64,000 nt of DNA. It comes from Porphyra umbilicalis (lineage: Eukaryota > Rhodophyta > Bangiophyceae > Bangiales > Bangiaceae). The DNA is taken from contig KV919062.1 in the NCBI GenBank assembly GCA_002049455.2, positions 32,280-96,279 of the forward strand, given 5' to 3'. The position numbers and the translations under genes were made by a program. Shown here one piece after another: positions 14,348 to 61,400 of this stretch; the first letter of the stretch is position 1, and each line of letters starts with the position of its first letter. Under the pieces are notes generated by a model. The model was not told the origin of the DNA. It saw only the letters and a program-made list of their open reading frames with translations, and did no database searches.

Positions 14348-14569
14348 TGACTCCACATCACAGGGCGCGCGCTCTCGTCGAGGCCCGACGCTCAGAACGC
14401 GTCGAACTGCTGTCCTGTTGCCGACGGAAAGGTAGCCCCAGTTTTCCGTGGAGTCCGACATTTGACACGACACGACCGGCTGGACAGTGTCGGCTCGAAA
14501 TCATGCCTTCTCTACTCGCACCGCGTGGGGGGAGGGGCTCGGGGGCGGCCTGGGGAGGGGGGTGCAGGC

Positions 14570-15345
14570 GCGCTTTTTGGCGCCGCCGCCGCTGGGCGGC
14601 GCTTCCAGCGCCCCCACCGGGGGCCCTGGGTGGGCCGCTGCGGGCCGCTGCGGGCTGCTGCGGGCGCCGGTTTTTGGCCCTGGCGCGCGCCGCGTGCGGG
14701 GGGGGCTCGGGCGCGGCCTGGTGGGGGGGCTGCTAGCGCGCGTTTTGGAGCCGCCGCCGCTGGGCGGCGCTTCCGGCGCACCCACCGGGGGCCCTGGGTG
14801 GGCCGCTGCGGGCCGCTGCGGGCTGCTGCGGGCGCCGGTTTTTGGCCCTGGCGCGCGCCGCGTGCGGGGGGGGCTCGGGGGCGGCCTGGTGGGGGGGCTG
14901 CGGGCGCGCTTTTTGGAGCCGCCGCCGCTGGGCGGCACTTCCAGCGCCCCCACCGGGGGCCCTGGGTGGGCCGCTGCGGGCCGCTGCGGGCTGCTGCGGG
15001 CGCCGGTTTTTGGCCCTGGCGCGCGCCGCGTGCGGGGGGGAGCTCGGGGGCGGCCTGGTGGGGGGGCTGCGGGCGCGCTTTTTGGCGCCGCCGCCGCTGG
15101 GCGGCGCTTCCAGCGCCCCCACCGGGGGCCCTGGGTGGGCCGCTGCGGGCCGCTGCGGGCTGCTGCGGGCGCCGGTTTTCGGCCCTGGCGCGCGCCGCGT
15201 GCGGGGGGGGGCTCGGGGGCGGCCTGGCGGGCGCGCTGCGGGCGCGCGTTTTGGCGCCGCCGCCGCTGGGCGGCGCTTCCGGGGGCCCTGGGTGGGCCGC
15301 TGCGGGCTGCTGCGGGCGCCGGTTTTTGGCGCTGGTGCGCGCCGC
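14570..15345 (+). repeat. 168-bp GC-rich tandem repeat, about five units
   Basis: The marker GCGCCGGTTTT recurs at 14664, 14832, 15000, 15169 and 15316. Spacing is 168, 168, 169 and 147 bp, so the last unit is shortened. Each unit contains GCCGCCGCCGCTGGGCGGC, GGGGGCCCTGGGTGGGCCGC and GCGCGCCGCGTGCGGGGGG. Since 168 is divisible by three, all three frames stay open on both strands and create spurious long ORFs. Confidence 0.9.
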
Positions 15346-15816
15346 GTGGGGGGGGGGCTTCGGGGGCGGCCTGGGGGGGGGGGTTGTGGGCTCAATTTTG
15401 GGCGCGCCTTTTGGTGCCGTGGCGGCCGCCATGCGGTTGGGCGATCACGCGCGCCCCCTGGCCGTTTCGTGCCGCACGGGGTGCTATTGTGTTCCTGTTG
15501 TGGTGCTCTTCGTCGATGGTTGGAACCTGCTGCTCGCAGTGGATGCGGCGTCGGCGCTGCATGCTTTCTTGCGGGCACCCGCATCAATGGCGGCTGGCGT
15601 TCGCCGTTGAGGCGGCCCCTATTTAGGGCCCCTCGAGCCTGCCTACCGGAGCCACCACTTCGGCAACCAGCACCTGACACATTGCCCTGAGCCTTTCCCT
15701 TTGTCGGCCCCTCCTCCACTCCCTCTCCGCCTTTGCCTCGGTTTTCTTTCTCCTCTCTGACCCCTCTCCGCCCTCTTCCGTAACACCTGTTGTCGACGCC
15801 CCCCTTGCCCTCGATA

Positions 15817-18774
15817 ATGGGTCCGGCGGAAGCACCTACCAACGGCTCTCGGCGCCCAGGCGCTCCCGCCGTACGTGTCGTCTCCCCGGCGGTGCCCGCC
15901 GCCGTCGCTGCCCCCCGCCTCGCTCCACGCCCTACTACCCCCGTCGTTCGTGTCGTCGCCCCGGCGGTACCCGCCGCCGTCGCTCCCCCCTGCCTCGCTC
16001 CACGCCCTACCACCCCTGTCGTTCGTGTCGTCGCCCCGGCCGTGCCCGCCGCCGTCGCTCCCCCCCGCCTCGCTCCTCGCCCTGCCACCCCCGTGGTTCG
16101 TATCGTCGCCCCGGCCGTGCCCGCCGCCGTCGCTCCCCCCCGCCTCGCTCCTCGCCCTACCACCCCCGTCGTTCGTGTCGTTGCCCCGGAGGTGGCCTCG
16201 ACCGTCGCGCCTCCCCGCCCCGCTGCTCGCCCTGCAGTCCCCGTCGTCGCTGCGGTTGCCCCGGCAGTGCCCTCCGCCGTCGCTCCCCTCCGCTTCGCTG
16301 CTCGCCCTGCCGCGCCCGTCGTCAATGCGGGAGCCCCGGTGGTGTCCATGCCCGTCGCGCCTCCCCGCCCCGCTGCTCGCCCTGCAGTCCCGGTCGTCGC
16401 TGCGGTTGCCCCGGCGGTGCTGGCCGCCGTGGCTGCCCCCCTCCTCGCTCCTCGCCCTGCCGCGCCCGTCATCGGGGCGGTTGCCCCGGTGGTGGCCACG
16501 ACCATCGCGCCTCCCCGCCCCGCTGCTCGTCCTGCTGTCCCCGTCGTCGCTGCGGTTTCCCCGGCTGTGACGGCCGCCGTGGCTGCCCCCCTCGTCGCTC
16601 CTCGCCCTGCCGCGCCCGTTATCGGGGCGGTTGCCCCGGTGGTGGCCACGACCATCGCGCATCCCCGCCCCGCTGCTCGCCCTGCTGTCCCCGTCGTCGC
16701 TGCGGTTTCCCCGGCGGTGCTGGCCGCCGTGGCTGCCCCCCTCGTCGCTCCTCGCCCTGCCGCGCCCATTATCGGGGCGGTTGCCCCGGTGGTGGCCACG
16801 ACCATCGCGCATCCCCGCCCCGCTGCTCGCCCTGCTGTCCCCGTCGTCGCTGCGGTTTCCCCGGCTGTGACGGCCGCCGTGGCTGCCCCCCTCGTCGCTC
16901 CTCGCCCTGCCGCGCCCGTCGTCGGGGCGGTTGACACGGTGGTGGCCACGACCATCGCGCCTCCCCGCCCCGCTGCCCGCCCTGCAGTCCCCGTCGTCGG
17001 TGCAGGCGCTACCGATGGCGCTGTGCGAGCCCCAATGCCTGCCGCACCGGTGACGATGGCGACGACAGCGGCCGCCTCGGGTGGCTCGGCGCCTGCCTCA
17101 ATGGCTACCGTGCCTGTCACGCCGGTGATGCCGGCCACCGCTGCCCCAGCTACGCCGGCGGATCGCGGGGCGGCGTTCGTGCACGACGTGTCGGAGGACC
17201 CGCCTCTGGGTGCGCGCTTCAGCCTCGCCGACCACGCTCGATCCCGCGCCCGGTCGCGTGCGGCGCGGGGCAGCCAGAATCCTGCGCTTCACAGGCTGTC
17301 CCGCTATGTGGCGGCCGTCAAGGGGGTTGGGCGGGTGGATGACTCCACGCTGCAGGCGACGGCGGCGATGGTGTCGGCGGCCAGCACTATCGAGAAGATC
17401 AACCCCGAGGTGCGACTGCTTGTCCACATGTCTGGGGTAGACCCGGCTGGCAGCGTCGCTTGGGCAAACATCTACGGCGCCGGGCGGGCGGTTGACTCGG
17501 ACGTGCTACGCGTCATGTCGCAAGTGCACCAATTCATCCAGGGACGAGACAGCCTGCGCGGCATCACGTTGCCGATCGGCGGCGAGCCTGCCCGCCTGGT
17601 GGACGACGACTCGATTATCGACGGGGTGCTGCCGGAGGGCATGACGACGAAGGACTACCTGGACATCATGACCTCAGCGGTGGATGCTGACCTTCCGCCG
17701 CCGCTGAGTATCCAGCGCATGGCGCGCCGCATGTCGCGCACCGCGGCGGGCTTGTCAATCGACAAGCTGAACTCGGAGAGCGACTCGTCCGGCTCTGAGG
17801 ACTGGGTCCGGCTGCCCTTCACCCTCGAGTCGGCGGACCCCCCACCGCCGTACCAGCCCTCCGAGAAGGCGTGCAGCTTCATGGAGACGCTGATGGTCGC
17901 CAACCACACGACGGCGCTGCTCGTCCGCCTCACTCTCTGGGCGGCCGTCGCCCACCTTACGGGGCGGGTGCAGACGCTTCCTCGCTACGTGACCGAGTGC
18001 ACCGCACGATGGTGGCCGCACAAGCTGCCAGCAGCCGTCGTCCACAACGATGAGCTCCCGGGGGAGCGGTGGCCAATTGGCGTGCTCGTCGACCGCCGGC
18101 TGCTGTCGGTGACGGCGCGGTCGCGGGACTACGGCGCGACGGGCGCTAAGCTGGTCACCCTGTTTGGGATCCCTGCCAACAAGGCGACCTGTACGCAAGA
18201 CGAGGCGGTCGCGGCGATGCTCCTTTTGTGGGACAAGGAGCCGTCGGTGCACGCAACGATGCGTCAATGCCGCTTCCGAGCGGAAGTCGTGCAGCTGGGT
18301 CAAGACAACCTGGCGCAGGAGGAGGCGGCCGCTGCTGTGCAAAGGGCGTCGGCCGCCCTCGACGCCGCCGAGGCTGTCGAGCCCACAACTGTAAGTGCTG
18401 CCCCAACAGCGGTGAGTGTCCCCTCTGCTGCGTCGGTGGGAGCGCCCGTCTCCGAAGTGCCTCCCTTGGAAGCGGCCATCACGATTGCGCCTCGGCCCGC
18501 CGTTACGGCGTCTGCGTCGCCGGCGCCGGCGGCAGCAAGCAGCGGCGTTGCGTCGGCTGGGGTACTAGCAGCTCTCAGCGCACGCGCTGCATCTCGCGCC
18601 GCCGCCGCTGATGCGGCTGCCAAGGCCCCGCGCGCCACCCGTGGGAGGAGCAAGCGGGCGGCGGCTCCGTCCACTGCGACCGGCCCTGTCAAGCGCACTC
18701 GTTGCACTCCGACCGGGGCCGGCCTCAACGCCGCTGTGCAGCCGGGGGCCGCTAGGCTACCTCCTCGTAGGTGA
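15817..18774 (+). CDS. Unknown 985-residue protein with fifteen 25-residue repeats
   Basis: Starts at ATG 15817 and ends at TAG/TGA-bounded 18774. Residues ~17-392 are fifteen tandem 25-residue units of the pattern VVRVVAPAVPAAVAPP-x-LAPRP-x-x-P. The central and C-terminal parts have normal composition (for example NPEVRLLVHMSGVDPAGSVAW and LVRLTLWAAVAHLTGRVQTL), with an acidic serine patch (SESDSSGSED). The last ~60 residues contain two basic clusters (RGRSKR, KRTR) like a nuclear localisation signal. I recognise no domain. A transposon-associated ORF is possible because the next gene on the same strand is a KDZ-like transposase, but 3.4 kb separates them. The complementary strand is also open for 801 codons across the repeat, which is a shadow of base composition. 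Confidence 0.6.
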   Translation: MGPAEAPTNGSRRPGAPAVRVVSPAVPAAVAAPRLAPRPTTPVVRVVAPAVPAAVAPPCLAPRPTTPVVRVVAPAVPAAVAPPRLAPRPATPVVRIVAPAVPAAVAPPRLAPRPTTPVVRVVAPEVASTVAPPRPAARPAVPVVAAVAPAVPSAVAPLRFAARPAAPVVNAGAPVVSMPVAPPRPAARPAVPVVAAVAPAVLAAVAAPLLAPRPAAPVIGAVAPVVATTIAPPRPAARPAVPVVAAVSPAVTAAVAAPLVAPRPAAPVIGAVAPVVATTIAHPRPAARPAVPVVAAVSPAVLAAVAAPLVAPRPAAPIIGAVAPVVATTIAHPRPAARPAVPVVAAVSPAVTAAVAAPLVAPRPAAPVVGAVDTVVATTIAPPRPAARPAVPVVGAGATDGAVRAPMPAAPVTMATTAAASGGSAPASMATVPVTPVMPATAAPATPADRGAAFVHDVSEDPPLGARFSLADHARSRARSRAARGSQNPALHRLSRYVAAVKGVGRVDDSTLQATAAMVSAASTIEKINPEVRLLVHMSGVDPAGSVAWANIYGAGRAVDSDVLRVMSQVHQFIQGRDSLRGITLPIGGEPARLVDDDSIIDGVLPEGMTTKDYLDIMTSAVDADLPPPLSIQRMARRMSRTAAGLSIDKLNSESDSSGSEDWVRLPFTLESADPPPPYQPSEKACSFMETLMVANHTTALLVRLTLWAAVAHLTGRVQTLPRYVTECTARWWPHKLPAAVVHNDELPGERWPIGVLVDRRLLSVTARSRDYGATGAKLVTLFGIPANKATCTQDEAVAAMLLLWDKEPSVHATMRQCRFRAEVVQLGQDNLAQEEAAAAVQRASAALDAAEAVEPTTVSAAPTAVSVPSAASVGAPVSEVPPLEAAITIAPRPAVTASASPAPAAASSGVASAGVLAALSARAASRAAAADAAAKAPRATRGRSKRAAAPSTATGPVKRTRCTPTGAGLNAAVQPGAARLPPRR
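15865..16990 (+). repeat. 75-bp coding minisatellite (15 units), partly a 150-bp higher-order repeat
   Basis: Fifteen 75-bp units. The first four are near-identical. From unit 8 onward two unit types alternate (VVAAVSPAV-type and VIGAVAPVVATTIA-type), making a 150-bp higher-order repeat that has been amplified recently, since units 9-15 differ at only a few codons. Confidence 0.9.
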
Positions 18775-23870: not shown

Positions 23871-24243
23871 TGTTGAGCATGGCTCAGCAATTCCATTTGT
23901 CTATACTTACCCGGTTGAGCATTGGGACTCAGTTTTGGGTATTTACCTATGCACTTGTTGTATGGTTTGTACTTGTGCGTACTTGCTTTTTTGGTCTCGT
24001 AGTGGGCACTCTCTGCTGGGGTGAGCTCGGGGGGGGGGACTTGTGTGGGGAGGTGCATGCCCCGTTCTGGGAGGTGCGCCGCGGCCCGCGCGCACTGAGA
24101 ACTGAGGCACGTGGGTGTGCTCCGAGAGCGGGCTGCCCGACGACCTGTCCTGGGGCCGCCTGGGGTACATTAGGTGGCTGGACACGGCCCAGGACCTCTG
24201 CCATAGTAAAACAACGCACCCACTTGACCACACCGACTTCACA
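23871..24243 (+). repeat. Left LTR of copia element 1
   Basis: Begins TGTTGAGCATGGCTCAGCAA, itself a short inverted repeat (TTGAGC...GCTCA-like), and ends ACTTCACA. The final ~45 bases (TAGTAAAA, ACGCACCCACT, ACTTCACA) are shared with the otherwise different LTR of element 2. Confidence 0.95.
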
Positions 24244-29461: not shown

Positions 29462-29833
29462 TGTTGAGCATGGCTCAGCAATTCCATTTGTCTATACTTA
29501 CCCGGTTGAGCATTGGGACTCAGTTTTGGGTATTTACCTATGCACTTGTTGTATGTTTTGTACTTGTGTGTACTTGATTTGTTGGTCTCGTAGTGGGCAC
29601 TCTCTGCTGGGGTGAGCTCGGGGGGGGGACTTGTGTGGGGAGGTGCATGCCCCGTTCTGGGAGGTGCGCCGCGGCCCGCGCGCACTGAGAACTGAGGCAC
29701 GTGGGTGTGCTCCGAGAGCGGGCTGCCCGACGACCTGTCCTGGGGCCGCCTGGGGTACATTTGGTGGCTGGACACGGCCCGGGACCTCTGCCATAGTAAA
29801 ACAACGCACCCACTTGACCATACTGACTTCACA
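29462..29833 (+). repeat. Right LTR of copia element 1
   Basis: 372 bp, preceded by the polypurine tract GGGGGGAG (29454-29461). Eight substitutions and one missing G relative to the left LTR, about 2.2 percent divergence. Confidence 0.95.
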
Positions 29834-33022: not shown

Positions 33023-33499
33023 GGTACATGTTTTCCTGCCTTTGTCACCGCCCTCGTCTGTGCCATCGATAGTCTTTACGATATGGCCGTTGTCTAGTTA
33101 CAGCGCTGTGTCTCTGCACGTTTGGAACAAAGTGCGGGGAAGCCGATGGTACCATTGACTTAGTAAAGAGCGGCCACATTGACTTTTACAAGTCAAGCTA
33201 CTATCGTGAGTCGAGCGGGAATGCATCCGCCACGGGCGAGAACTCGCGGGCTAAAGGCCAACCCGCCGCTGTAGCTAGTGGCCGGGAGCGGCTGCCGGTG
33301 GGTGCAGCATGCGCGGCAGGCGTGGTGGGGCAGTGCGCTGCGGGAATGTGTGGGCAGGGTCGAGGCACGCACAGTCACGGCGGTGCTGAAGCGGGGACAG
33401 CGGCAGCCGGCGGGTGCGGCCAAGGCAGCCCCAGGCGCGGGCAGCGGCGACAACGGCAGATGGTGTGCGCGGGCGCTGTGGCAGTAGGCCGCGCGAGGG

Positions 33500-34080
33500 G
33501 TGGTAGGCCTCGTGGGAAGGCGCGGCGGGGGCAGCGAGGGCGGGAGGGGCGGGAGCGGGCGGGGCGGGGGCGGTGGGGGCAGGCGTGGCCGGAGCGGGCG
33601 GGGCGGCCGCGGGCGCGCGGCCAGGGCGGGCGGGGCGGGCACGGGCGCGGGCGCGGCCGGGGAGGGCGGGGCAGGGGCGAAAGCGGCCGGAGCGGGGGGG
33701 GCGGGGGCGGGCGCGGCCAGGGCGGGCGCGGCGGGGGCGGGCGCGGCCAGGGCGGGCGCGGCGGGGGCGGGCGCGGCCGGGGCGGGCGCGGCCGGGGCGG
33801 GCGCGGCGGGGGCGGGCGGGGCCGGGGCGGGCACGGCGGGGGCGGGCGCGGGCGCGGCCGTGGAGGGCGGGGCGGGGACGAACGCGGCCGGAGCGGGGGG
33901 GGCGGGTGCGGGCGAGGCCCGGGCGGGCGCGGCGGGGGCGGGCGCGGCCGGGGCGGGCGCGGCCGGGGCGGGCGCGGCGGGGGCGGGCGCGGCCGGGGCG
34001 GGCGCGGCGGGGGCGGGCGGGGCGGCGGCGGGCGCGGCCCGGGCGGGCGCGGCGTGGGCGGGCAGCACGGGGGGCGCGAT
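33500..34080 (+). repeat. G-rich minisatellite (GGGGCGGGCGCGGCC-type units)
   Basis: About 580 bp built of 15-bp GGCGGGGGCGGGCGC / GGCCGGGGCGGGCGC-like units. The plus strand has G runs every few bases throughout, giving high G-quadruplex potential. It is open in all frames and encodes only Gly/Ala/Arg repeats, so no protein is called. Confidence 0.85.
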
Positions 34081-34406
34081 TGACGGCGGCCAGCGCCCCC
34101 CCGTGGCCCTGCTATTCGGTGGCACCCAGGGTCCGCCAGTTCCACGTCACCTAGCATACGGTGGGGCCCCAGATGAGGCTCGGAAATGTGTGCTCGTGCT
34201 CGTACCCGTAAGAAGAAACATTGCGAGAACTGGCCACTTTGGCGGCGGGGGTACGACTCGGTCCTCGTCTGGTACTCCGCGCCGGAGCTGGAAGAAACGG
34301 ATGTCCTCCTTGCGGTCGACAGGTGTCCGTTCGTCGGTCATCGAACCGGTTTCGGTCGAGCAGCACGCGCCCGATCGACCATGATTTGACCCTGTCCGAT
34401 CGGTCG

Positions 34407-35948: not shown

Positions 35949-36699
35949 CGTGCCATTCGCCTGGCAGCACGTGCCGCGGTACTGCACCCGGCTGCGGCGG
36001 GGATTTCCACTCCGCCGCTGGCGGTACCTGCTCCGTTCATCACCGACGGTCTGTCATGATAAAGCGTTCCGCCGGAGATTGGGGCCCGGGACGGCGCTTC
36101 CGCCGTCCTTGCGCCCACCTCTTTTGCGCGCGCAGCTCCATTTGGCCGCCATGGCGTGGCGCTCGCGGGGTCCGCGCCCGCTTCCCCGCCCCCGCCCCCG
36201 CCCCCGCCCCCCCCTCGCCCCTGCCCCCGCTGCACTCACCCCCCCCACCCCCACTCGCACCGCCTTCTCCCCCTTCCCAGCCACCCCGCTGGTGTTACCA
36301 TCCGTCCGCTTCCGCCCGTCTGCTGCTCTTGTTCTCGCGCGTGCTCCATTTCTACCGTTGTCGTCCTGTTGCGGCGCCGCCCCCATTGTAGTACTACGGG
36401 GCCCCCTATGCGCCAGGGGGCGACCGCGAGGAAGTCGGCGGCGATGGGGGACGCGGTCCCCGACGTGAGGTGGCGACGCCAGCGGCGGTGGTGGCCGACG
36501 GGTCGGCGACGCGGGGGGCGGGGCGAGGAGGCGGCCCCGCTGCCCGGCTCGGGCACCCGGGGGAGCGTACCCGATCCGTCGCGCCCGGCACGCGGGCCCC
36601 GCGGGAGGCCGGATTGGCGCGCCCGAGAGGGCGCTGGCGCGCCCGAGAGGGCGCAGCAGGCGACGGCCGACCGGGCGCCATCGGCGGGTGCAGCGCGTT

Positions 36700-37194
36700 G
36701 CGCGCGGGACGGTTTCTCCCCCTCGTCTGTAATGATCGCCTCGGGGGACTTGACATGCATGGAGGAAATTATCTGCATTGGTTGGTGACGGCCCGGTCAA
36801 TTCCCATTGGGGGAAATTGGGCCCGGGCGACGGTCTCCGCCCTTTTAGGACGAAGGGCGACGACGGCGGGAGGCACCGTCGTCGCCGGCAAGTAAACCGT
36901 GTCTTGATGTCTTGGCGTTCCGATCGGCCCGACTTCCCGGACCTCGAGTCACATAGCGGGTGTCGCGCGAGCGGCTAAGACAGCCGTTACTTCCCTCCTT
37001 CTGAGGTAACCCCCTAGATTGTGGTACTACATTTGGCTCTCCGGGTGAGACTCGCGGTACGTGTGGTATTAATAACGTTAGTTCAATGACCAGTGTACTG
37101 AGACCGACCGTAGCCAAGCAATAAAGCGAGTTCTATCGCCGTCGCGGCGAGGAAGAAAGACCTTTTGTTGAAGGGCATCCGATGGGGAGCCGGG
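36700..37194 (+). repeat. Probable 5' LTR region of the Ty3-type element (boundaries uncertain)
   Basis: Three facts point to an LTR. It precedes gag by ~400-800 bp. It contains an AATAAA (37120-37125). Its 36713-36970 part recurs, ~80 percent similar, in reverse orientation at 61145-61400. A 12-bp stem (36856-36886, GGCGACGACGG...CCGTCGTCGCC) and an AATTCCC...GGGGAAATT inverted repeat are kept in both copies. The 3' LTR is absent because the element is truncated, so the ends could not be fixed by comparison. Confidence 0.5.
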
Positions 37195-37214
37195 TGGTGC
37201 CCACGACGGCGACC
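37195..37214 (+). promoter_or_regulatory. Candidate primer-binding site of the Ty3-type element
   Basis: TGGTGCCCACGACGGCGACC would pair with a tRNA 3' end ...GTGGGCACCA, the usual priming mode for Ty3 elements. The position between the LTR-like region and gag is right, but the LTR end is not independently defined. Confidence 0.35.
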
Positions 37215-37578
37215 CCGGACCCACGGTGGTTTAATACAAGCAACGGCACTGGTCGATCGACCATCCGATCAATCGATCGTAATGAGTGCCGGCAGACAGA
37301 TAAGACAGGCAAGCAAACAAGCAATAAAAAATAAACAATGCGGAAGTAACCCCCCAAAGGGCGTGCCACAAGCCGAGTCACACAAATCCGTGGATTCAGC
37401 CAGTCAAGGGGGCTACTCGTGGCTAATTGCCAATTGGGAGCAGAGGTGTGCGACAGTACGCACGCTGTGCGTGTCGTGGATCGACACCTCTTTCGGTACC
37501 AAGAGTCGGGGGACCCTCGTTGGTTGTATTGCGGTGCGGTGACAGAGGACATCCGATCGATAAGCGGGCCCCGCTTCC

Positions 37579-40353
37579 ATGGCTCGCCGATCTTCCTCAT
37601 CTTCCCCGCTTGACGGGGGCGCTTTTCCGTTTGATATGCCTGGCACTAGCCGGGTGACGGACGCGCCACCGGCGGGAGACCCCGGAACAACATCGGCCTT
37701 GGGCGCCGTGGCCCCTGTTGGGGGTGGAAGGGCGGTCCCGGTTGGCGGCGGCGGTACGGTGGCGGGTGAGTCGAACTCCCCGCCCGAGGACCCCGGCCGC
37801 ACGCCGACCATCGGGGCTCGTCCTCCTCCCGGCGCGGGACGGACGTCCACGCTGATGGAGCCCCAGGTAGGGGGTGCGGGGGTTCACCCTTCCCCCCTGG
37901 ACGGGCAGCGCCTGAAAGGGGCGCCGCCCTTTGGCCCTCCCTGAGTGGACGCGGTGGGCAGTTCATCGGGAACTTTAGTTGGCGGGACCCCCGCGGGCCG
38001 GGGGCCGCGTCGACCAATGGATGCGCTGTCGCTGGAGGAGGACGAGCGGCAGCGCCGGGAATTACAGCGAGCGTTCGGGGTCCCCCCGGAAGAGGTGGCC
38101 CGGGCCCGGTGGCAGAGGACCACCCGGGACCACTGGTCCCTGGACGCGCCGTCCGGGGCGGGCGGGTCGGGGCCCAGCCTGCAGGGGGTCGGCGGAGCCG
38201 CGGCCCCAGGACCACCTCGGTCGGTGGCCGACCCCGGGCACCTGCGCCACCTGGCTCAGGTGTTCCGCGACGCCGCGGAGGAAGCGTCGACCGCGGCATC
38301 GGACGGGACTCCGGTCCCGGGGCGAGGCGCCGCCGTTGCCCTGGCCCTGGCGGCGGCCCAGGGCCCTTCCCCTGGGACCGCGAGCGCGGGTGGACCGGCA
38401 CCCCCGGAACCCGGGTCAGGCACGTCCGGGGAGCGCCCCCGGACGGGGGGCGCTACCCGGACAGGGTCCGCCTTGACGGTGACTGCCTCGCCGGCCGCGC
38501 GCCCTGCGCGGCCGCGGTCCCGGAGGGGCGCCGAGCGTCAACACCTGAAGGCGGCTCCCTCGAAGGGCCACCGACGGCGTCGCCACGCCCGACGGGCGCC
38601 GTCACCCCTCTCGTCGGGGCCCCCCTCGTCGACCGAGAGTGACGAGAGTCCGTCGAGCTCGTCATCCGCCGCCAGTGGGGCGGCGTCGACGGATAGCAGC
38701 GACGGCTCGACCTCGTCCTCCGCCACCGGCAGTGACCCCGGGGCAACACGCCGCCGACGGCGGGCACGGGCGGCCGACAAGCGGCCACACCGGGCCCTAG
38801 TGCAAGAGGCGCTGCGCGCCTTCCGGCGGGAGCAGCGGGAGGACACGGTGGTCGACCCCCGCTTCAAGGGGCTCCTGTCGCCGGAACGGTACCGGCTTGC
38901 ACAGCGAGGGGGCCGCCTACACCTCCCGCGAGGCAATTCCATCCTCGGCATCCGCGCGGACGTCAAGGCCTTGATGCACACCTCGCGGCAGTTTGCGGGC
39001 GACACCCCGTTGGGGTTGGTGGCGTTCCTTGGGAACTTCCAGACGGCATGCGACGGCAGCGGGCTGAACGAGGGTACGGCAGAGACACTGCTGCAGTACT
39101 TCGTTACGAGCGAGGTGCTCGGCGTGCTCCAGCGCGCCAAGGACACCCACGCCTCGCGGCAGCTCACGTACAAGCGCGCGGTCCACGCCCTGCTCAACGA
39201 GTACCTCGACGGGGACGACCTGGTGGACCACCTTCAGTCCCTCATGCAAGCATCCCAAGAGAAGTGGGAAGACGAGCACGAGTTTGCGAACCGCATCCTC
39301 GATGCTAACCGTGCCTTGGGCTCGGTCCTACAAGAGGCCGAGCTGAAGAGTATCCTACTCAAGGGCGTTGGACGGGAAGTCCGGGCCCTGGGGCGGAACT
39401 TCAACACCCAGGGCCGGACCTTCCCCAAGCTGCGCAAGTTCCTTGCCAAGACGGGAGCAGCCACCCGGGAGGCCCGGGGGGTCAAGCTCCAGGCCAAGCC
39501 CAAGGGGAGCACCTCCCGGTCGGTCGGCGGCGAAGAACGGGAGACCCGTCGGGCCCGGCCGGCGGCATCCGTCGTTCTCCCGGTGGGAGCCGCCTCGGCC
39601 GCGGCTGCTCTGTCCGTCACGGACTACGGTACCGAGGCGGAGCGGGCCGAGTGGGCCGCGTTGTTGGCCGCGTCGGGGACGCCCGTTGAGAACGGGTCCC
39701 CGGGCGACGTCCCGATATTACCGGTGGACAGTCTGCCGCACGCGTCGGGCTGGCAACAGCAGCCCGCGTGGGCCGGGCGCCCGGAGTTGTACCCCGTTCA
39801 CACGGGGGCGGGGCGCGGGCGCGGTACCCTGGCGCCGGGCACCCCGGTGCCTCCACGGGTAGGAACCGTCTTCCCGCACTCGGATCGCCCCCCGCGGTTT
39901 CCCCGAGGCGGGGCGCCTCCACCGCGTGGCGGCGGATGGAGTGGGGCACCCGAGGCGGGGCCCCCGCCACGTCGGCGGGGGGCCTGCTCGTTCTGTGGCC
40001 ACCTGGGGCACTGGGTGTGGGAGTGCCCCGCCCAGTCTCCCGAGGTGCGGGCCCACGGGCGCGCGCTGCGCGAGGCAGTCGCGGCACACCGCAACGGGCG
40101 GGGACCAGCGCCGCCGGCACCCCTGCCCCTGGGCGCGGGACCGCCGGTTCCACCGGTACCGCCGACCGGCGCCAACCATGGGACCGTCCCGCCGGGCACG
40201 GCTGCCTTCGTCCACGCCGTGAAATCGGATGACCGGGCGTACCCGGACGTAGCAGGCGACGAGGGGGAGAGTTCCTCCGAGGAGTGGATCGCGGGCGCCG
40301 ACGGCGCGAGTCACGGGGACGGCCGCGCCCGCCAAGCCCAGGGAAACGAGTAA
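37579..40353 (+). pseudogene. Ty3-type gag (one in-frame TGA)
   Basis: Open from ATG 37579 with a single TGA at 37942-37944; an ATG at 38017 restarts in the same frame. The N-terminal third is Pro/Gly/Ser-rich. Residues encoded by ~38790-39470 form a helical gag-like core (ALLNEYLDGDDLVDHLQSLM, EFANRILDANRALGSVLQEA). A CCHC zinc knuckle, CSFCGHLGHWVWEC, lies at ~39990-40030. The frame ends 4 nt after a GGGAAAC heptamer. The TGA either makes this copy defective or means translation starts at 38017. It would package element RNA into virus-like particles. Confidence 0.8.
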
Positions 40354-40379
40354 GGGGCAGCCTCCTTAGTGGGCTGCCC
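40341..40379 (+). promoter_or_regulatory. -1 ribosomal frameshift signal at gag/pol junction
   Basis: Heptamer G GGA AAC (40341-40347) in the gag frame, 7-nt spacer GAGTAAG containing the gag stop, then an 8-bp perfect stem (40355-40362 with 40372-40379, GGGCAGCC/GGCTGCCC) with a 9-nt loop. Pol lies in the -1 frame and is open across the site. All three elements of a canonical -1 frameshift site are therefore present. GGGAAAC is a known retroviral slippery heptamer. Confidence 0.8.
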
Positions 40380-41820
40380 ACGGACGTCGTCCGTCTCAAG
40401 GCACACCGGCACTGCTACATCACGGCGACCCGCCTGCGCCAGGTACGCAAGCGGCGGGCCGCAGCGGGATTCCCGCCAGCGCCCGCCTTCTGCCCTCGCA
40501 TCCTTGCGCGGCCCGGGGGGGTCGGCCACGCGACGGCGGACGTGCCGGACCGCCGCCCCGTCCCAGCGACGCCGGTGGCCACCGAGGCCGTCCCTCCGTC
40601 TCCGCCGGTCGCCGCGTCAGTCCTGGCCCTGGGCCACTCCGACCCCCGGCCGTCGGGTGGCGGGGATGGCATCCCAGCGGACCTACCCGCCATCGGGGCG
40701 CGCACCGGGCAGGGGCTCCGGCGGCGCCTCGGGGGACGCGCTCGGCGCGAGCGTACCCGCTTTCGCCGCCACGCCGCCGCCGTCGCGGACACCACGCACG
40801 CGCCGGGCACCCCGCCCCGGGGCGGGGAAGTGCTGCTTTTCAGTCTGCACAACTACCGCATCGTGGCCTCGCTGGGGCTGGACACGCTGTCCCTCCGTGC
40901 GTTCGGCGTCGTCGTCGACACGTGGGCAGGCCCCAACTTGGTCCGCCGGAACGCCCTCGTTCCTGACTGGCTCCGCAAGGTGGTCACCTCCAAGGAGGAG
41001 GAACAGGTACGTCTACGAGACGCCAACAACGCACGGTTACGCACTAGCGGTACCGTCACGCTGTGGCTCCAGACGGGCGCACGGATCGTCCCGGTTCCCT
41101 TCCTCGTCGTCGACGACCTGTCGGTCCCAGTCATCTTGGGCTGCACGTTCATCGACGACAACGCCCACGCCATCCTGCCTTGGGATAGGTCCATCCGTTG
41201 GACGGACGGGTCCGTCACGGCGATCCTATGGGGGCCGTTGGACGATGGTGACCGCTCAATGGGCGTCTCCTGCGTTCTCCGCGCGACGCACAAGACGCGG
41301 CTTCCGCCGTCGGCGGCCACGGTCGTCTGGGTGCGGACTATGTGGGGGGGCCTGAGCCAGGTGTTCGGCGCTTCGCGCCTCTTCACAACGCATGGGGTCA
41401 CCATCGCCAACAGCGTGCACGATATCGTGCCGGGGCTATCTTTCCCGGTCATCGTGACCAACGTTGGCGCGCGCGAGGTTATCCTCCGGCCGAGGGCCAA
41501 CGTTGGCTACGTCGAGCTGCTGACGACGGGCGTCGTACAGGTGCCCCCCGGGGCACCCCCCTGTACACCGGCCGTCCCGGCCATCGCGCCGGCCACGGCC
41601 GCCGAGGGCGTTGTGGCGGCGGTGTCAAGCACCCGAGACGACCACGCGCCGGGGCGGAGCCTGGACCCGGCGACGGCCGCGGGCAGTGGGGCTGCGACCC
41701 CCGCGCGACCCCGGGTCCCGGGCGAAGAAGGCGCCGTGGCGGGCGCAGCGCTGCCCGCGTCCCCCCCGCAAGTGGAGGACGTGGACCTACCGGACGTCGA
41801 CCCGACGCTGCACACCCGGA

Positions 41821-41825
41821 TCCGC
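41821..41825 (+). repeat. Target-site duplication, left (TCCGC)
   Basis: TCCGC precedes the left LTR of copia element 2 and recurs at 47741-47745. Confidence 0.95.
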
Positions 41826-42192
41826 TGTGAAGTGTACTTCCGCAGTCCCCCAGGGACAATTGGCCCTTGCGTAAGTCGTAAGTCTTTGTATTTGTGTGGT
41901 GACACTGCATGTACTTGATTGTAGATCTTTCAGCGGGGAACCCATTAGGGGTTGAGCCCCGGGGGAGATTTGTGTGGGGAGCGGCGCCTGGAGTGTGAGG
42001 CTGTGGGCGCCCTCCGGAGGTGAGGGAGCTGCCCTGGGAGGTGCCGTGCGGGCCTTGTCGGCCGCGCCATTGGGGGTGCCTGGGAAGGCCCTGCGGCTGA
42101 GGCGGCCTGGGGGATATCAGGCACGCCTCCGCAGGCCTGGGAACGCAGTGCCTAGTAAAAGAACGCACCCACTCATCATCATCGACTTCACA
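41826..42192 (+). repeat. Left LTR of copia element 2
   Basis: 367 bp, begins TGTGAAGTGTACTTCCGCAG, ends GACTTCACA. A TGTGAAGT...ACTTCACA terminal inverted pair is evident. Confidence 0.95.
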
Positions 42193-42208
42193 GGTTATGG
42201 GCCCAGTG
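42193..42208 (+). promoter_or_regulatory. Primer-binding site complementary to internal initiator tRNA-Met
   Basis: GGTTATGGGCCCAGTG, identical to that of element 1 and likewise directly adjacent to the LTR. Conservation of this 16-mer while the LTR bodies differ supports function. Confidence 0.85.
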
Positions 42209-42348
42209 TCGCTGGTGGTGATCGTCGTCTTCCGCTATATCGTTTGCGGGACGGCGCTCGTTGGGCTGCTGTGTGTTCCGGCGTCGGGCGGGCGGGCTTA
42301 GCCTCCCACGTCGTCAGTGTCGCGCCTCGGGGCGCGGTGTTTGTCGTC

Positions 42349-45300
42349 ATGTCGGAGTACGGGCGCTACGGTGGCCCTCGCTTTGCGCAGCTGGACGACG
42401 ATTACAAGGTCTGGGCCGTGTACTGCCGTGCACAGCTTATCAAGGAGAAGGTCTGGTCGGCGGTCGTACCGGACCGCCCCGCGTCCGGGAGTGATTCCAA
42501 GGGCAACTTGGTGGCGGACGCGTGGGACATCATGAACGATTCGGCGTTGGCGACCATCAAGATGTCGGTCAAGCCGGTTCATCTCCATTCGGTGACGGCG
42601 GTCAGCACAGCCAAGGACGCGTTGGACGCGCTCAAGGACATCTTTGAGGCGCGTGACAACGCACGGCTGCTGCAGCTCATGCACGAGCTGAGCAACCTCA
42701 AGAAGGACGGCGACGAGAACATCATCAAGTACACGTCGCGCGCCAAGGGCCTCCGCCAAGAACTCGCAATGCTGGGCAACCAGGTGGAAGAGAACACACT
42801 CGTGCTGCAGATCCTGTCGGGTCTTCCAGCAGAGTACGACATGATCAAGACCGTTCTGGAGAACATGGACGGGAAGCGCAACCTCGCCGAAGTGAGCGCC
42901 AAGCTGCTCACGGTGGAGCAGCGCGCCAGCCGAGGGCGGTCGTCGTCGTCGACTGGCGTCAAGTCGCAAGCGTTTGCGGCATCGGCTACCAAGAAGCCGT
43001 GGGACAAGAAAGCGGTCGTGTGCTACTACTGCGACAAGAGAGGGCATATGAAGCGCGACTGCCTCAAGAAGAAGGCCGACGACGCCAAGGGCAACAAGAA
43101 GCCCAGCGGCGGGCGTCGGGATGGTGGCGGGGGCGGCGGTGCACCTCCCCGTGCCGCATCGGCCTACGCCGCGTCGGCAGGCCAGGAAGGGGAGAACAAG
43201 ACTCCCGAGAGCACCAGTGGGATGTCTACCTGGGTGCTGGACTCCGGCGCGACCAACCATATGGCCGCCGGGGACAAGGGCTTCACCGTCAAGACATCGG
43301 GAAGCGGGGCCAAGGTCACTCTGGCTGACGGTCACAAGGTGTCCATTAAGGGGCACGGATACGTCTCCATGGACGTGGGGGCGGACAACACGAAGGTACG
43401 AATGGTCCTCGGTGAGGCCATGCTCGTGCCAGACCTGTCGGACAACCTGTTGTCTGTGCGTGCGGTCGACCGCCGCGGCGGAGCGGTGGTGTTTGTCGGA
43501 GACGCCTGCTACATCCTCAGCGATGGAGAGGCGGTACTCTCAAGCGGGGTATTGAGCAACGCGTCTGTCATCGGTTCGGTCAACGAGTCCGAGAACTACG
43601 TGCTCAAGGTGACGCCGGTCAAGGCGTCGGCAAGCGCCGCCTCAACACGCATGGACGGCGAGGCGGAGCTGTGGCACCGCAGGTTCAACCACTTGGGCTT
43701 CGAGAACCTCAAGCGAGTGGTCGGGATGGTCGACGGGATTCCAGCTTCGGTGGCGGACGCCAAGCGCATCCTTGGCACGGTGTGTGTCCCGTGTGTTGAC
43801 GGCAAGATGGCGCGTTCCCCGCATCATCGCTCCACTACAACGAGCACCAAGTGCGAGTTGGTTCACACCGACGTCGATGGGCCCTTGACGGAGTCGTTGG
43901 GCGGTTCAGTGTACTTCATGACGCTGATGGAGGACTCTACTGGCTTCATCACGGCGACGCCCATCAAGACGAAGGGGATGGTACCGGACGTCATCAAGGC
44001 CCGCATTACGCAGCTTGAGACCCTCACCGGGCTCAAAGTGAAGCGGGTGCGCCACGATGGCGCAAAGGAGTACGTCAGCCACGACCTCAAGGCGTGGTAT
44101 GACAACAAGGGCATCACGTCAGAGAAGACGGCGCCGTATTCATCGCAGCAGAACGGCAAGGCGGAGCGTGCCAACCGCTACATCATGGAGCGCGTTCGCG
44201 CGGCACTGCTGGACGCCGGTGCGGAAGAGGAGCTGTGGGCTGAGGCGCTCTCCTCGGTCATCCACGTGCTAAACCGGTCCCCCAAGGCCGGGCAAATTCT
44301 GACGCCCCTTGAGGCGCTCACGGGGCGACGCCCCGACGTGAAGGGGTTTCGCGTCTGGGGGAGCCGGGCCTGGGCTCTCAAGCCCAAGCAGCAGCAGCGC
44401 AAGCTGGAACCAAGGACAGATGTTGGCCGTTTTGTTGGCTACACCGTTGGTGGAAAGGCCTACCGCATCCTCGAGGATGATTCAAACAAGATCTTCGAGC
44501 GCCGAGACGTGCTCATGGAGGAGATCCCAGGTAAGACCATGAACAAGACGTCTGTTTCTGGTTCAAGCGCCAGTCCTTGCCTGACGGCGTGGACGGATGG
44601 TGACAAGCAGGACGGTGCGATGAACATGCTGGACGCGGAAGTCCCCAGCGGGGACGAGTATGCTCCGCAGCAGTCTTCAGAGAGCGACGGCGCGCCGGAA
44701 AAGGAAGCCGTCCATGACGCGGAAGACGGCGATGACGATGACGACAACGAGGACGCGGCGGCTCAAGAAGGGCACCAAGTGCTGCCTGACTCCACAACGG
44801 AGAGTGATGACGACGGGGCGCAAGCACCCCGGCGGTCCAAGCGCAAGCCGGCACCAAAGGTTACCTGGTGGGAGAGCAACCCAAAGGCGTACGTGGCAGC
44901 GGGGCCATTGGGTGACGCTAAGTCTGCCTGGGACCTGAGCAAGCCGCCGACCAACGCGAAGGAGGCGCGTGCACGCTCGGACTGGCCGCTATGGAAGGCG
45001 GCAGAGAAGGAAGAGTACCTGGCGCACAAGAAGCTTGGTACCTGGTCCAAGACCAAGAACAACAACAAGCGCAAGGCCGTCAAGACTCGGTACGTGTACG
45101 ACATCAAGCGCGATTCGGAAGGCAACGTGAAGAGGTACAAGGCACGCCTGGTCGCGCAAGGATTCAACCAAGTGCCGGGGCGTGATTTTGACGAGACGTG
45201 GGCGCCAGTGCCCAGCTCGGCAACAACACGCGCACTCTTCGCGGTGGCCGCGGCCAAGGACTGGGAGGTTCACCACGTGGACGTCAAGACGGCCTTCCTC

Positions 45301-46521
45301 AACGCCAAGATGGACAAGGAGATGTACATCAACCATCCGGAAGGCACCGAGCCGGGGGAGGCACATGAGGTCTTCCGTCTCAACCTAGCTCTGTATGGGA
45401 CAAAGCAGGCGGGGCGTCTGTGGGGCATCAAGCTCGACAAAGAGCTCAAGGCTATGGGGGCAGACCGGTCCAAGGTGGACCCGTGCCTCTACACGTGGAG
45501 CCACCCGGTGCACGGGCTGGTTTACATCCTCGTCTACGTGGACGATCTCATCGTTGCGGGCAAGAGCCTCGACGGGGTTCAAGCGGTAAAGAACTCGGTG
45601 TCGGCGACGTTCGACGTGCGCGACATGGGGGAGGTCAAGGACTTCATCGGCATGAAGGTAATGCGAGACCGGGCGGCCAAGACGCTCACCCTGAGCAGCC
45701 CGGGGCATGTTATCGCACTCCTTGAGGCGTTTGGAATGTCCAACTCCACGCCCAACAAGACGCCAATGGTGTCGGGGGCCAAGCTGGCCAAGACGGGGGA
45801 GAACCTCTTGCCCGACGGCAACCGATATGCCGAACTTGTCGGCTCCCTGCTTTATCTCTCTACAACGACGAGGCCGGACATTGCCTTTGCCGTGGGCGTG
45901 CTGTCGCGCTACATGGCCTGCCCCGAGGAGGACCACATGCGCGCGGCCAAGGGGGTGCTTCGGTACCTTCGCGGGGCTACGCGCCTCGGGGTCGCGTACG
46001 GCACCTACAAGCCTCTCTAAGGGTACGTCGACGCCGACTGGGCGGGCGACGTCGACGCTCGTCGGTCGACGACGGGTTTCATCTTCACACTCAACGGCGG
46101 GCCGGTCTCGTGGGCGAGCAAGCGCCAGTCGACGGTGGCAACGTCGACGGCTGAGGCCGAGTACGTGGCCGCCGCGATGGCGACTAAGGAGGCCCTTTGG
46201 CTTCGCAAGCTCGTATCGGCGCTTGGCGTCGACGGCGGTGCCGTTCCCATGGGGGGAGACAACCAGGCGTGCCTGGCGCTCGTCAACAACCCCGAGGCAA
46301 CGGGGCGCACCAAGCACGTGGACGTCGCGTACCACATGGTGCGCGATTACGTGGCGCGCGGCGACGTGACCTTTTACTTCCTGCCGAGTGCTGAGATGCC
46401 CGCGGACGGGCTCACCAAGGCGCTGCCGGGGCCGGCGTTCAAGGCCTTCCGTGACGCAGCGGGTGTCGGGCCCGACTTGGGCGTGGCGGCGGGCGCGCTT
46501 GAGCCCGACCTGGCGTGCTAA
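42349..46521 (+). pseudogene. Copia gag-pol polyprotein, element 2 (one nonsense codon)
   Basis: Starts at ATG 42349 (MSEYGRYGGPRFAQLDDDYK); the frame is open further upstream through the LTR but without ATG support. Motifs by residue: CCHC knuckle 225-238, protease DSG with Asp 298, integrase zinc site His443/His448 and Cys479/Cys482, integrase Asp508, Asp570, Glu606 (D-61-D-35-E spacing), RT YVDD with Asp1065/1066, RNase H in the last ~170 residues ([23 protein letters not shown]). TAA at 46018-46020 replaces the CAA still present in element 1, just before the RNase H YVDADW motif. Everything else looks functional. A -1 or readthrough signal is not apparent at the TAA. Confidence 0.95.
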
Positions 46522-47373
46522 CGCACGTCGTCACACTGCCCGGCTTTGGGGCGCTAAAGGGCTTTAGCGCATCCGGCTGGGCGGGCCCGGGCGCCGATTT
46601 CAAGTATTCGGGCCCGGATGTCGCGGCCTGGAAGATCGTTCCGGGGCCGACACGTGGCGCAGTTGCAACACGTGGCGCTGTTGCAACACGTGGTGCCGTT
46701 GCAACACGTGGTGTCGGTGCAACACGTGGCGATGGGGCTAAAGTGCTTTGGGCCCTCTTCTGGTGGTGCCCGACGGGCCGGATGTGGTCGTACGGGCACC
46801 CGGACGGGTCGGGCGTGGTCAGGGCACCTGCCCGGTCCTTCCTGGGCCCTTTCCGAGGTCGGTTGAAAAACCGAGTTGTGGAAGGGGTCTAAAGGGCTTT
46901 AGCCCCGCCGTGAGAATGGTCACTGTGGGGGTGGTGCCCGATGGACCGGATGGGGTCCTACGGGCACCAGGGAGGCCCGGAGATGCCTTCGGCATCCTCG
47001 CGGGCCTGTTTTGGCCCCATCGGAGGTCGGTTGAAAAACCGACCTCTGGACATGAAGCTAAAGGGCTTTAGACCCCCGGCCAGAATGGTCACTGTGGGGG
47101 TGGTGCCCGATGGACCGGATGGGGTCCTACGGGCATCAGGGAGGCCCGGAGGTGCCTCTGGCATCCTCGCGGGTCTGCTTTGGCCCCATCGAAGGTCGGT
47201 TGAAAAACCGACCTCTGGACATGGGGCTAAAGGGCTTTAGACCCCTCTGCATGAAAGGGGTCTAAAGGGCTTTAGACCCCTCGGTCAGATGGTCCCCGGA
47301 GAGCCTTGCATGGACTTTCGATGACGGGAATTTGACCAGGTGGGAGGAATTATCCCAGGGGTACTGGGGGGAG
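46522..47373 (+). repeat. 3' non-coding repeats of copia element 2
   Basis: About four and a half 18-bp units of the GTTGCAACACGTGGCGCT type lie at 46653-46736. They are followed by a ~169-bp tandem repeat: AGAATGGTCACTGTGGGGGT at 46913 and 47082, with diverged copies before and a short one after. Each unit ends GGTTGAAAAACCGA...CTAAAGGGCTTTAG, and both of these boxes are small inverted repeats. A polypurine tract GGGGGGAG (47366-47373) abuts the right LTR. Confidence 0.85.
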
Positions 47374-47740
47374 TGTGAAGTGTACTTCCGCAGTCCCCCA
47401 GGGACAATTGGCCCTTGCGTAAGTCGTAAGTCTTTGTATTTGTGTGGTGACACTGCATGTACTTGATTGTAGATCTTTCAGCGGGGAACCCATTAGGGGT
47501 TGAGCCCCGGGGGAGATTTGTGTGGGGAGCGGCGCCTGGAGTGTGAGGCTGTGGGCGCCCTCCGGAGGTGCGGGAGCTGCCCTGGGAGGTGCCGTGCGGG
47601 CCTTGTCGGCCGCGCCATTGGGGGTGCCTGGGAAGGCCCTGCGGCTGAGGCGGCCTGGGGGATATCAGGCACGCCTCCGCAGGCCTGGGAACGCAGTGCC
47701 AAGTAAAAGAACGCACCCACTCAACATCATCGACTACACA
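47374..47740 (+). repeat. Right LTR of copia element 2
   Basis: 367 bp. Four substitutions relative to the left LTR, about 1.1 percent; two of them lie in the last 20 bases (TCAACATCAT, ACTACACA). Confidence 0.95.
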
Positions 47741-47745: not shown

Positions 47746-48684
47746 CGCATGCTGGACCAGCACAAGGCAATGTGGACGGGCCAGGCGCTCGGCGTCATCA
47801 AAGCCACCCAGCACCGCATCGACCTCAACGCCGGCGCCCGGCCCGTCCGCTTCGCGCCGCGCCGCGCGGGGCACACGGCGCGGGAGGCCGAGACGGCCGA
47901 GGTCAAGCGGCAGCTGGAGGCGGACGTCATCGAACCGACGTCGTAGGAATGGGGCTTCCCAGTCGGGCTGGTCCCCAAGAAGGATGGCACCCTCCGCTTC
48001 TGCGTCGATTATCGACTGCTGAACGTCGTCACCAAGAAGGACTCGTACCCGCTGCCCCGGATGGACGAATGCATCGACAGCCGCGGTGAGGCGACCATCT
48101 TCTCGACGTTGGATTGCAACGCCGGCTACTGGCAGGTTGCCATCGCACCCGAAGATCGGGAGAAGACGGCTTTCGTGTGCGACGAGGGCGCGTACCAGTA
48201 CAAACGGATGCCGTTCGGCCTAACAAACGCCCCGGCGACGTTCCAGCGGGCGCTGGACATCATCCTCTCCGGGGTGAAGTGGCAAAGCTGCCTCATCTAC
48301 CTCGACGATGTCATCGTGTACTCCAAGACGGAGGAGGAACACGTCGGTCACGTCCACCGCGTTCTGCGCCTGCTTCGCGAAGCGGGAGTGACACTCCGCC
48401 TGCCCAAGTGTCGGTTCTCTCGGAAGACAGTGGAGTACCTCGGACACGAAATCAAACCGGGCCGGCTTGGCGTGATGGACGCGCACACTCGCGCCCTGCG
48501 CGAGGCGCGCTTCCCCACGACCCGCACGCAAGTACGGAGTTTTGTGGGGATGTGCAACGTCTTCCGCCGGTTCGTGCCGAACTTCGCAAGGATGACGGCG
48601 CCATTGACGGACCTCATGGGGTCCACGGCCCCTGTCATGGTGCCCCCCGCCACGCCGCTGGTTTGGTGGCGGCAGTGGCAATAA
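47746..48684 (+). pseudogene. Ty3-type pol, 3' part: reverse transcriptase (truncated, one TAG)
   Basis: Continues the 40341-41825 frame. It begins with the connector seen before Ty3 RTs (HRIDLNAGARPVRFAPRRAG), then the RT palm/fingers: VPKKDGTLRFCVDYRLLN, FSTLDCNAGYWQVAI, KRMPFGLTNAPATFQRALD, and the catalytic YLDDVIVYS. TAG at 47944-47946 interrupts just before EWGFPVGLVPKKDG. The thumb region reaches MCNVFRRFVPNF and LTDLMG, then homology ends near 48660, before the RNase H tether. RNase H, integrase and the 3' LTR are missing, so the element is 3'-truncated. Confidence 0.9.
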
Positions 48685-61144: not shown

Positions 61145-61400
61145 CACTATAGGATCACCCGATCCGGGAAGAGGAACCGCCATAGGTACAAGACAAAAGG
61201 CACGGTTTACTTGCCGGCGACGACGGTGCCTCCCACCGTCGTCGCCCTTCGTCCTAAAAAGGGCGGAAACCGTTGCGTGGGCCCAATTCCCCTAATGGGA
61301 ATTGGCCTGCGCCGCCGACCAACCAATACCACTAAGTACAATGCAAGACAAGTCCCCCAATGCGGTAAGTAGAGACGAGGGGGAATCGGGACCGGGCGCC
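61145..61400 (-). repeat. LTR-like fragment related to 36700-36970
   Basis: Read on the minus strand it matches the probable Ty3-type LTR region: CCCCCTCGTCT, GGGGGACTTG, ATTGGTTGGT, CAATTCCCATT, AGGACGAAGGGCGACGACGG, CAAGTAAACCGTG. The 12-bp stem at 61216-61246 is perfect here. The end of the LTR (poly(A) signal and primer site region) is missing, so it is a partial copy. Confidence 0.65.

Follow-up and report, generated by a model that had tools for sequence, protein, structure and literature searches.

Introduction

The yeast element Ty3 shifts +1, whereas in the element described here, from the red alga Porphyra umbilicalis, pol lies at −1 to gag. The two are alike in their enzymes: the closest solved reverse transcriptase (RT) is that of Ty3 (4ol8), and protease is directly followed by RT. 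The mechanism used by Ty3 has been called distinct, and pairing to a +1 codon has been discussed (PMC5009743, in part). In a 2003 survey of animal LTR elements, pol was found at −1 in 28 of 51, many with a classical heptanucleotide (PMC5009743, in part). The algal element resembles these in having pol at −1 and a classical heptanucleotide near the end of gag, and differs in its host; no algal element is among those compared in the sections of that paper drawn on here. In plants, two types of element keep gag and pol in separate frames; both have pol at +1, and one group has a conserved stem (PMC5009743, in part). Gag–pol recoding and the stem are points of likeness to the plant elements, and the direction of the shift is a point of difference.

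The heptamer at this locus, G_GGA_AAC, belongs to the shiftiest on mammalian ribosomes. At many studied sites the spacer measures 5–9 nt, and simple stem-loops are one class of stimulator (PMC5009743, in part). Retroviral and other viral G_GGA_AAC sites share the heptamer, and the algal spacer of 7 nt falls within the usual range; they differ in that a simple stem-loop is present here, with no conserved pseudoknot found. Among the algae surveyed in PMC6317226 no non-chromovirus Ty3/gypsy elements were reported; its main text uses neither ‘red alga’ nor ‘Rhodophyt’ (cited in part). Copia-like elements are cited in Porphyra yezoensis (PMC2806351, in part). We found no earlier report, in the open-licence library searched, of −1 gag–pol recoding in red-algal Ty3-type elements.

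The DNA analyzed here, ‘the window’, is a stretch of 64,000 nucleotides of P. umbilicalis (GCA_002049455.2, contig KV919062.1, positions 32,280 to 96,279). A first-pass annotation, made from the letters alone, had proposed that a Ty3-type retrotransposon carries a −1 frameshift cassette at 40341–40379. This is still the best reading, and two other lineages share the cassette. We consider it very probable that the cassette is a red-algal Ty3-type family's signal for −1 programmed ribosomal frameshifting from gag into pol; the copy in the window is itself dead. What the sequences show is the parts and their frames, the copies that share them, and conservation between lineages; slippage, how efficient it is, and stimulation by the stem we infer.

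Sequences and scope

The genome searched was the 83.8-Mb assembly of 665 contigs. On contig C665 there are eight strong matches to phycobiliproteins and four to phycobilisome linkers, and other contigs add eight linker matches, a content that we read as that of a red alga with its plastid genome; glaucophytes have phycobilisomes as well. The DNA search scored 40 of 109 candidates, and the protease search 150 of 705, so the copy numbers given here are lower bounds. Eighty loci were fetched, of which 74 have a match across the junction and represent 58 distinct copies; 16 duplicate loci, paired by hand from their positions, were dropped, as were 6 without a junction match (L038, L046, L062, L068, L072 and L076). 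For L086, the fetched stretch misses the junction of its copy. Comparisons between lineages use one chosen copy of each: L002 (lineage A, the family of the window), L083 (A') and L081 (B).

The cassette

Table 1. Parts of the Ty3-type element, its frameshift cassette and its insertions, in window coordinates
Feature	Position	Strand	Evidence
5' LTR of Ty3-type element	36387..37031	+	DNA search, 40 matches scored
Leader insertion, 394 bp	37062..37455	.	5-bp duplication GTACG at 37057-37061 and 37456-37460
gag, 778 codons from first ATG	38017..40353	+	ORF open from 37945
Gag CCHC zinc knuckle, C-X2-C-X4-H-X4-C	39985..40026	+	Read from translation
Slippery heptamer G_GGA_AAC	40341..40347	+	Sequence, gag ORF scan, copy alignment
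Spacer GAGTAAG, 7 nt, containing gag stop TAA (40351-40353)	40348..40354	+	Sequence
Stem-loop (arms 40355-40363 / 40371-40379, loop 40364-40370)	40355..40379	+	Sequence, lineage comparison, folding
pol, first part, -1 to gag	40347..41825	+	Frames; protease piece 40833-41240
Protease motif DTWAG	40917-40931	+	Translation
Nested Ty1/copia element	41826..47740	+	LTRs 41826-42192 and 47374-47740; target duplication TCCGC
pol, second part: reverse transcriptase	47746..48656	+	RVT_1 E = 2.8e-37

The gag frame ends CAG GGA AAC GAG TAA by direct reading, with the heptamer in frame as the first-pass annotation had it. That annotation set the heptamer 4 nt before the gag stop; 3 nt lie between them. Its other particulars are borne out: the 7-nt spacer, the perfect 8-bp stem-loop, an open pol in the −1 frame, and the standing of GGGAAAC as a known slippery site. 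The stem is formed by the arms GGGCAGCC and GGCTGCCC (40355–40362 with 40372–40379), and U40363 and G40371 could close it with a ninth, wobble pair; in most other copies the first base of this pair is C, giving C-G in place of U·G. The −1 frame is an open ORF, 40233–41918, that crosses the heptamer. True pol ends at 41825, the point of the copia insertion, despite the ORF running on.

The predicted structure is a stem of 8–9 bp, 7 nt 3' of the heptamer. Folding of 40348–40400 gives z = −2.9, a value that includes a second hairpin (40380–40394), which is absent from lineages A' and B when these are compared by eye. A pseudoknot between the loop (CCUU) and AAGG at 40398–40401 was considered and rejected, as the loops of A' and B, again by eye, do not offer the pairing. 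Rfam at gathering scores gave no match across the window.

Were the element functional, translation would mostly terminate at the TAA and yield Gag. With the stem-loop stalling them while GGA occupies the P site and AAC the A site, a minority of ribosomes would shift back to GGG AAA and continue reading ...GKRVRGS... into protease and RT, and this slippage would set the ratio of Gag to Gag-Pol. Among 22 public relatives of Gag, compared at the protein level, 6 end exactly at QGN plus E or A and 4 at near variants; another 2 extend a few residues beyond, and the other 10 finish at different points. A protein search with the pol piece returned 61 relatives.

How often would such a combination arise by chance? 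The gag ORF has a single in-frame canonical heptamer in 802 codons, the one at 40341, and codon shuffles give P = 0.012 for at least one within the last 40 gag codons. Such a stem occurs 4–10 nt downstream of 22 of the 1292 codon positions in the gag/pol stretch (exactly 7 nt downstream of 6); the product of 0.012 and the 4–10 nt frequency is about 2 in 10,000, if the two are independent. The window holds 146 canonical heptamers on both strands (68 + 78), and 3 of them precede a Watson–Crick stem of at least 8 bp that starts 4–10 nt downstream. The two others, at 36840 and 61263, are copies of one LTR hairpin. The junction pattern has no match in viral_contigs, and 2 in bacterial genomes that we take as chance.

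The host element

The element is best read as a Ty3-type LTR retrotransposon (Table 1). Most of the 40 scored LTR matches cover 36387–37061 and seven stop at 37031–37032, from which the right edge was inferred; the repeat recurs elsewhere in the genome with the same end point. A 3' LTR is absent, the 3' end of this copy being lost. In other copies the flanks of the 394-bp leader insertion adjoin, with a 5-bp overlap. The insertion starts TG and finishes CA, and so is possibly a solo LTR from some other family. The stretch 36700–37445 has one further match, at C61:84782-85543 (88%).

Gag has a 778-aa relative, P0001, that is 96% identical over the part searched. Its zinc knuckle reaches only E = 0.048 with Pfam zf-CCHC_3, below the cut-off. 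The protease piece has no Pfam match and nothing useful among solved structures. At the D-T/S-G motif of protease, 28 of the 30 loci examined have DTGAG (27 DTGAGPN and 1 DTGAGPD); the motif is altered to DTWAG in the present copy and to DTRAG in one. RT is placed by its solved relatives: the best match is 4ol8 (E = 6.1e-56), followed by 7q5b, also from Ty3. In this copy the protease piece precedes RT, with no integrase between, and the 3' part is missing. The nested copia element has RVT_2 and copia gag domains, and its LTRs differ by 4 mismatches in 367 nt.

Judged by its sequence, this copy is dead: its protease motif is altered, pol is interrupted by the copia element, RT has an in-frame TAG (47944–47946), and RT is cut short, family similarity ending at 48656 in most matches. 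The cassette in this copy is a relic, and any function belongs to the family.

Sister copies

Alignment with the rest of the family, which the first-pass annotation had suggested as a check, upholds the cassette: GGGAAAC is exact in 45 of the 58 copies, and 52 have a stop at the end of gag. At least 8 of the 9 stem pairs are likewise kept in 52 of the 58. Copies at least 93% identical (n = 41) have the heptamer in 38, the stop in 39, and at least 8/9 pairs in all 41. The corresponding numbers for the 17 more diverged copies are 7, 13 and 11, lower retention that marks the older copies as decayed. L071 and L074 share a ~810-bp break in pol along with identical private changes, and are therefore probably one duplicated segment.

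The first-pass annotation had also argued from conservation in a decaying element to recent function. The cassette is indeed conserved; the argument is weak by itself, because the flank just downstream accumulates changes at about the same rate. In 30 copies, changed cells number 15 of 1170 in the cassette (the sum of its parts), 1 of 210 in the heptamer, 49 of 3600 in the downstream flank, and 139 of 3600 in the upstream flank; extra constraint on the cassette within this young family is thus indistinguishable from that on the downstream flank. Retention of the cassette among sister copies mainly shows that the family is young.

Other lineages

Conservation between lineages is the stronger evidence. 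The protease search (150 of 705 candidates scored) returned A' at 59% (one place), most of B at 47–49%, C at about 41%, and others at 41–46%. The junction of A' reads GGGAAAC GAGTAAG GGGCAGCCC...GGGTTGCCC, and that of B, GGGAAAC GCCTAAG GGGCAGCCT...GGGCTGCCC. Heptamer, spacer length and stem are common to A, A' and B, whose proteases compare with that of A at 59% (A') and 48% (B). Over the 39-nt cassette, A and A' are identical at 35 positions, A and B at 33, and A' and B at 31. In the 60 nt upstream the same pairs agree at 34, 23 and 25 positions, and in the 60 nt downstream at 44, 28 and 26. Exact matches to GGGAAACNNNTAAGGGGCAGCC (heptamer, stop and 5' arm) number 54 genome-wide, and the GCC spacer of B occurs in 10; allowing up to 3 mismatches raises the count to 115 places, versus 32 for a reversed-pattern control. 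Decay is visible in further B-like copies: the stop is gone from L084 and L085, the latter also missing one base of the 5' arm, and the 3' arm is altered in both L087 and L088.

Lineage C presents a variant. In L082, L089 and L090, gag ends TCG AAA AAC GTC TAG, and protease lies in the −1 frame relative to gag. The heptamer, G_AAA_AAC, is not a perfect X_XXY_YYZ and not canonical. The spacer has the same length and leads to a 10-bp stem with a one-base bulge and a different 5' arm, its two outermost pairs assigned partly by eye. The predicted shifted product has E-K-R in place of the G-K-R of A, which would call for the Lys tRNA to pair anew with GAA. We infer by analogy that slippage at G_AAA_AAC is plausible, since natural slip sites also depart from X_XXY_YYZ, among them G_UU(A) of equine arteritis virus (PMC5009743, in part). 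At up to 3 mismatches a 24-nt signature of lineage C (e.g. L082) finds 247 places, versus none for its reversed control, many more junction matches than the family of the window has; 100 matches were listed, all exact. These 247 say only that lineage C is numerous and young.

Is the stem-loop a stimulator?

The slip site could be real and the stem-loop incidental, its arms conserved only as coding for conserved residues of Pol. We regard this as unlikely. The residues R-G-S and G-L-P are identical in A, A' and B, as it would require, and no two-sided compensatory change, of the kind that the first-pass annotation had thought worth seeking, was found among the family copies or in A' and B. The stems of L002 and A' differ once, CTG becoming TTG, a one-sided change that leaves Leu in place while G-C becomes G·U. 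Stable hairpins, moreover, are not rare in this GC-rich DNA, as shown by the folding-energy rank of the site among 30-nt windows: 36th among 1670 in the window, 14th among 3371 in lineage A (L002), 15th among 780 in A' and 5th among 781 in B. In C the corresponding stem ranks first, with the lowest energy of 781 in its locus. Against an incidental stem stand the third bases of codons whose residue is the same in A, A' and B: none of the 6 stem codons varies there, versus 20 of the 25 beyond (P = 0.0006), a test that is small because each lineage is represented by one copy. Each pair of lineages alone gives P = 0.005–0.008. Lineage C argues in the same direction: its stem lies equally far from the heptamer and has a 5' arm of its own.

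Alternative routes to Pol

With the heptamer incidental, Pol might instead be made by termination and reinitiation, by internal entry, or from a spliced message. This is very improbable. The pol frame has no ATG from 40233 to 41258, the first, at 41259, lying past the protease motif, which argues against reinitiation. In A' the earliest ATG, the 135th codon past the site, coincides with the beginning of the protease piece, and there is none in the 94 codons after the site in B or in the 28 in C. The heptamer and its spacing are, besides, kept across lineages. Finally, that the change of frame is an artefact of decay or assembly, an indel having split a single gag–pol frame, is scarcely credible: the present copy is decayed, but independent copies (of 30, 10 have gag open as far as the fetched stretch reaches, 13 have pol so, and 5 have both, in different frames) and the other lineages have the same frames and cassette, which contradicts it. 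Gag and pol occupy separate frames elsewhere in the family; a single frame there would have counted against the first-pass reading.

Other repeats in the window

Direct repeats at 23871–24243 and 29462–29833, 98% alike and 5.59 kb apart, probably belong to another copia-type element, a relative of the copy inserted in pol; 24204–24503 matches 42153–42452 at 86%. An inverted repeat pairs 36840–36905 with 61197–61262 (95% complementary), both carrying CCCTTTT followed by a hairpin of 11–13 bp. Since the first lies within the LTR of the Ty3-type element, the second is possibly a piece of LTR in reverse orientation. Tandem arrays occupy 33478–34121, 15773–17047 and 14517–15379, with units of ~15, 75 and 168 nt, respectively.

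Significance

The signal is of a well-known kind, and what is known of the mechanism is unchanged. Frameshifting by −1 may be ancestral to a clade of Ty3-type elements in red algae, a suggestion that we offer tentatively and rate somewhat below even: the position of the slip site and the 7-nt spacing would have been held while proteases diverged to 41–48% identity, and the signal of C would have been rebuilt with the non-canonical G_AAA_AAC and a different, bulged 10-bp stem. The −1 programmed frameshift signal proposed here would place classical −1 gag–pol recoding in red-algal Ty3-type elements. With related cassettes at varied divergence in one genome, these elements would be useful for studying how slip site and stimulator change together.
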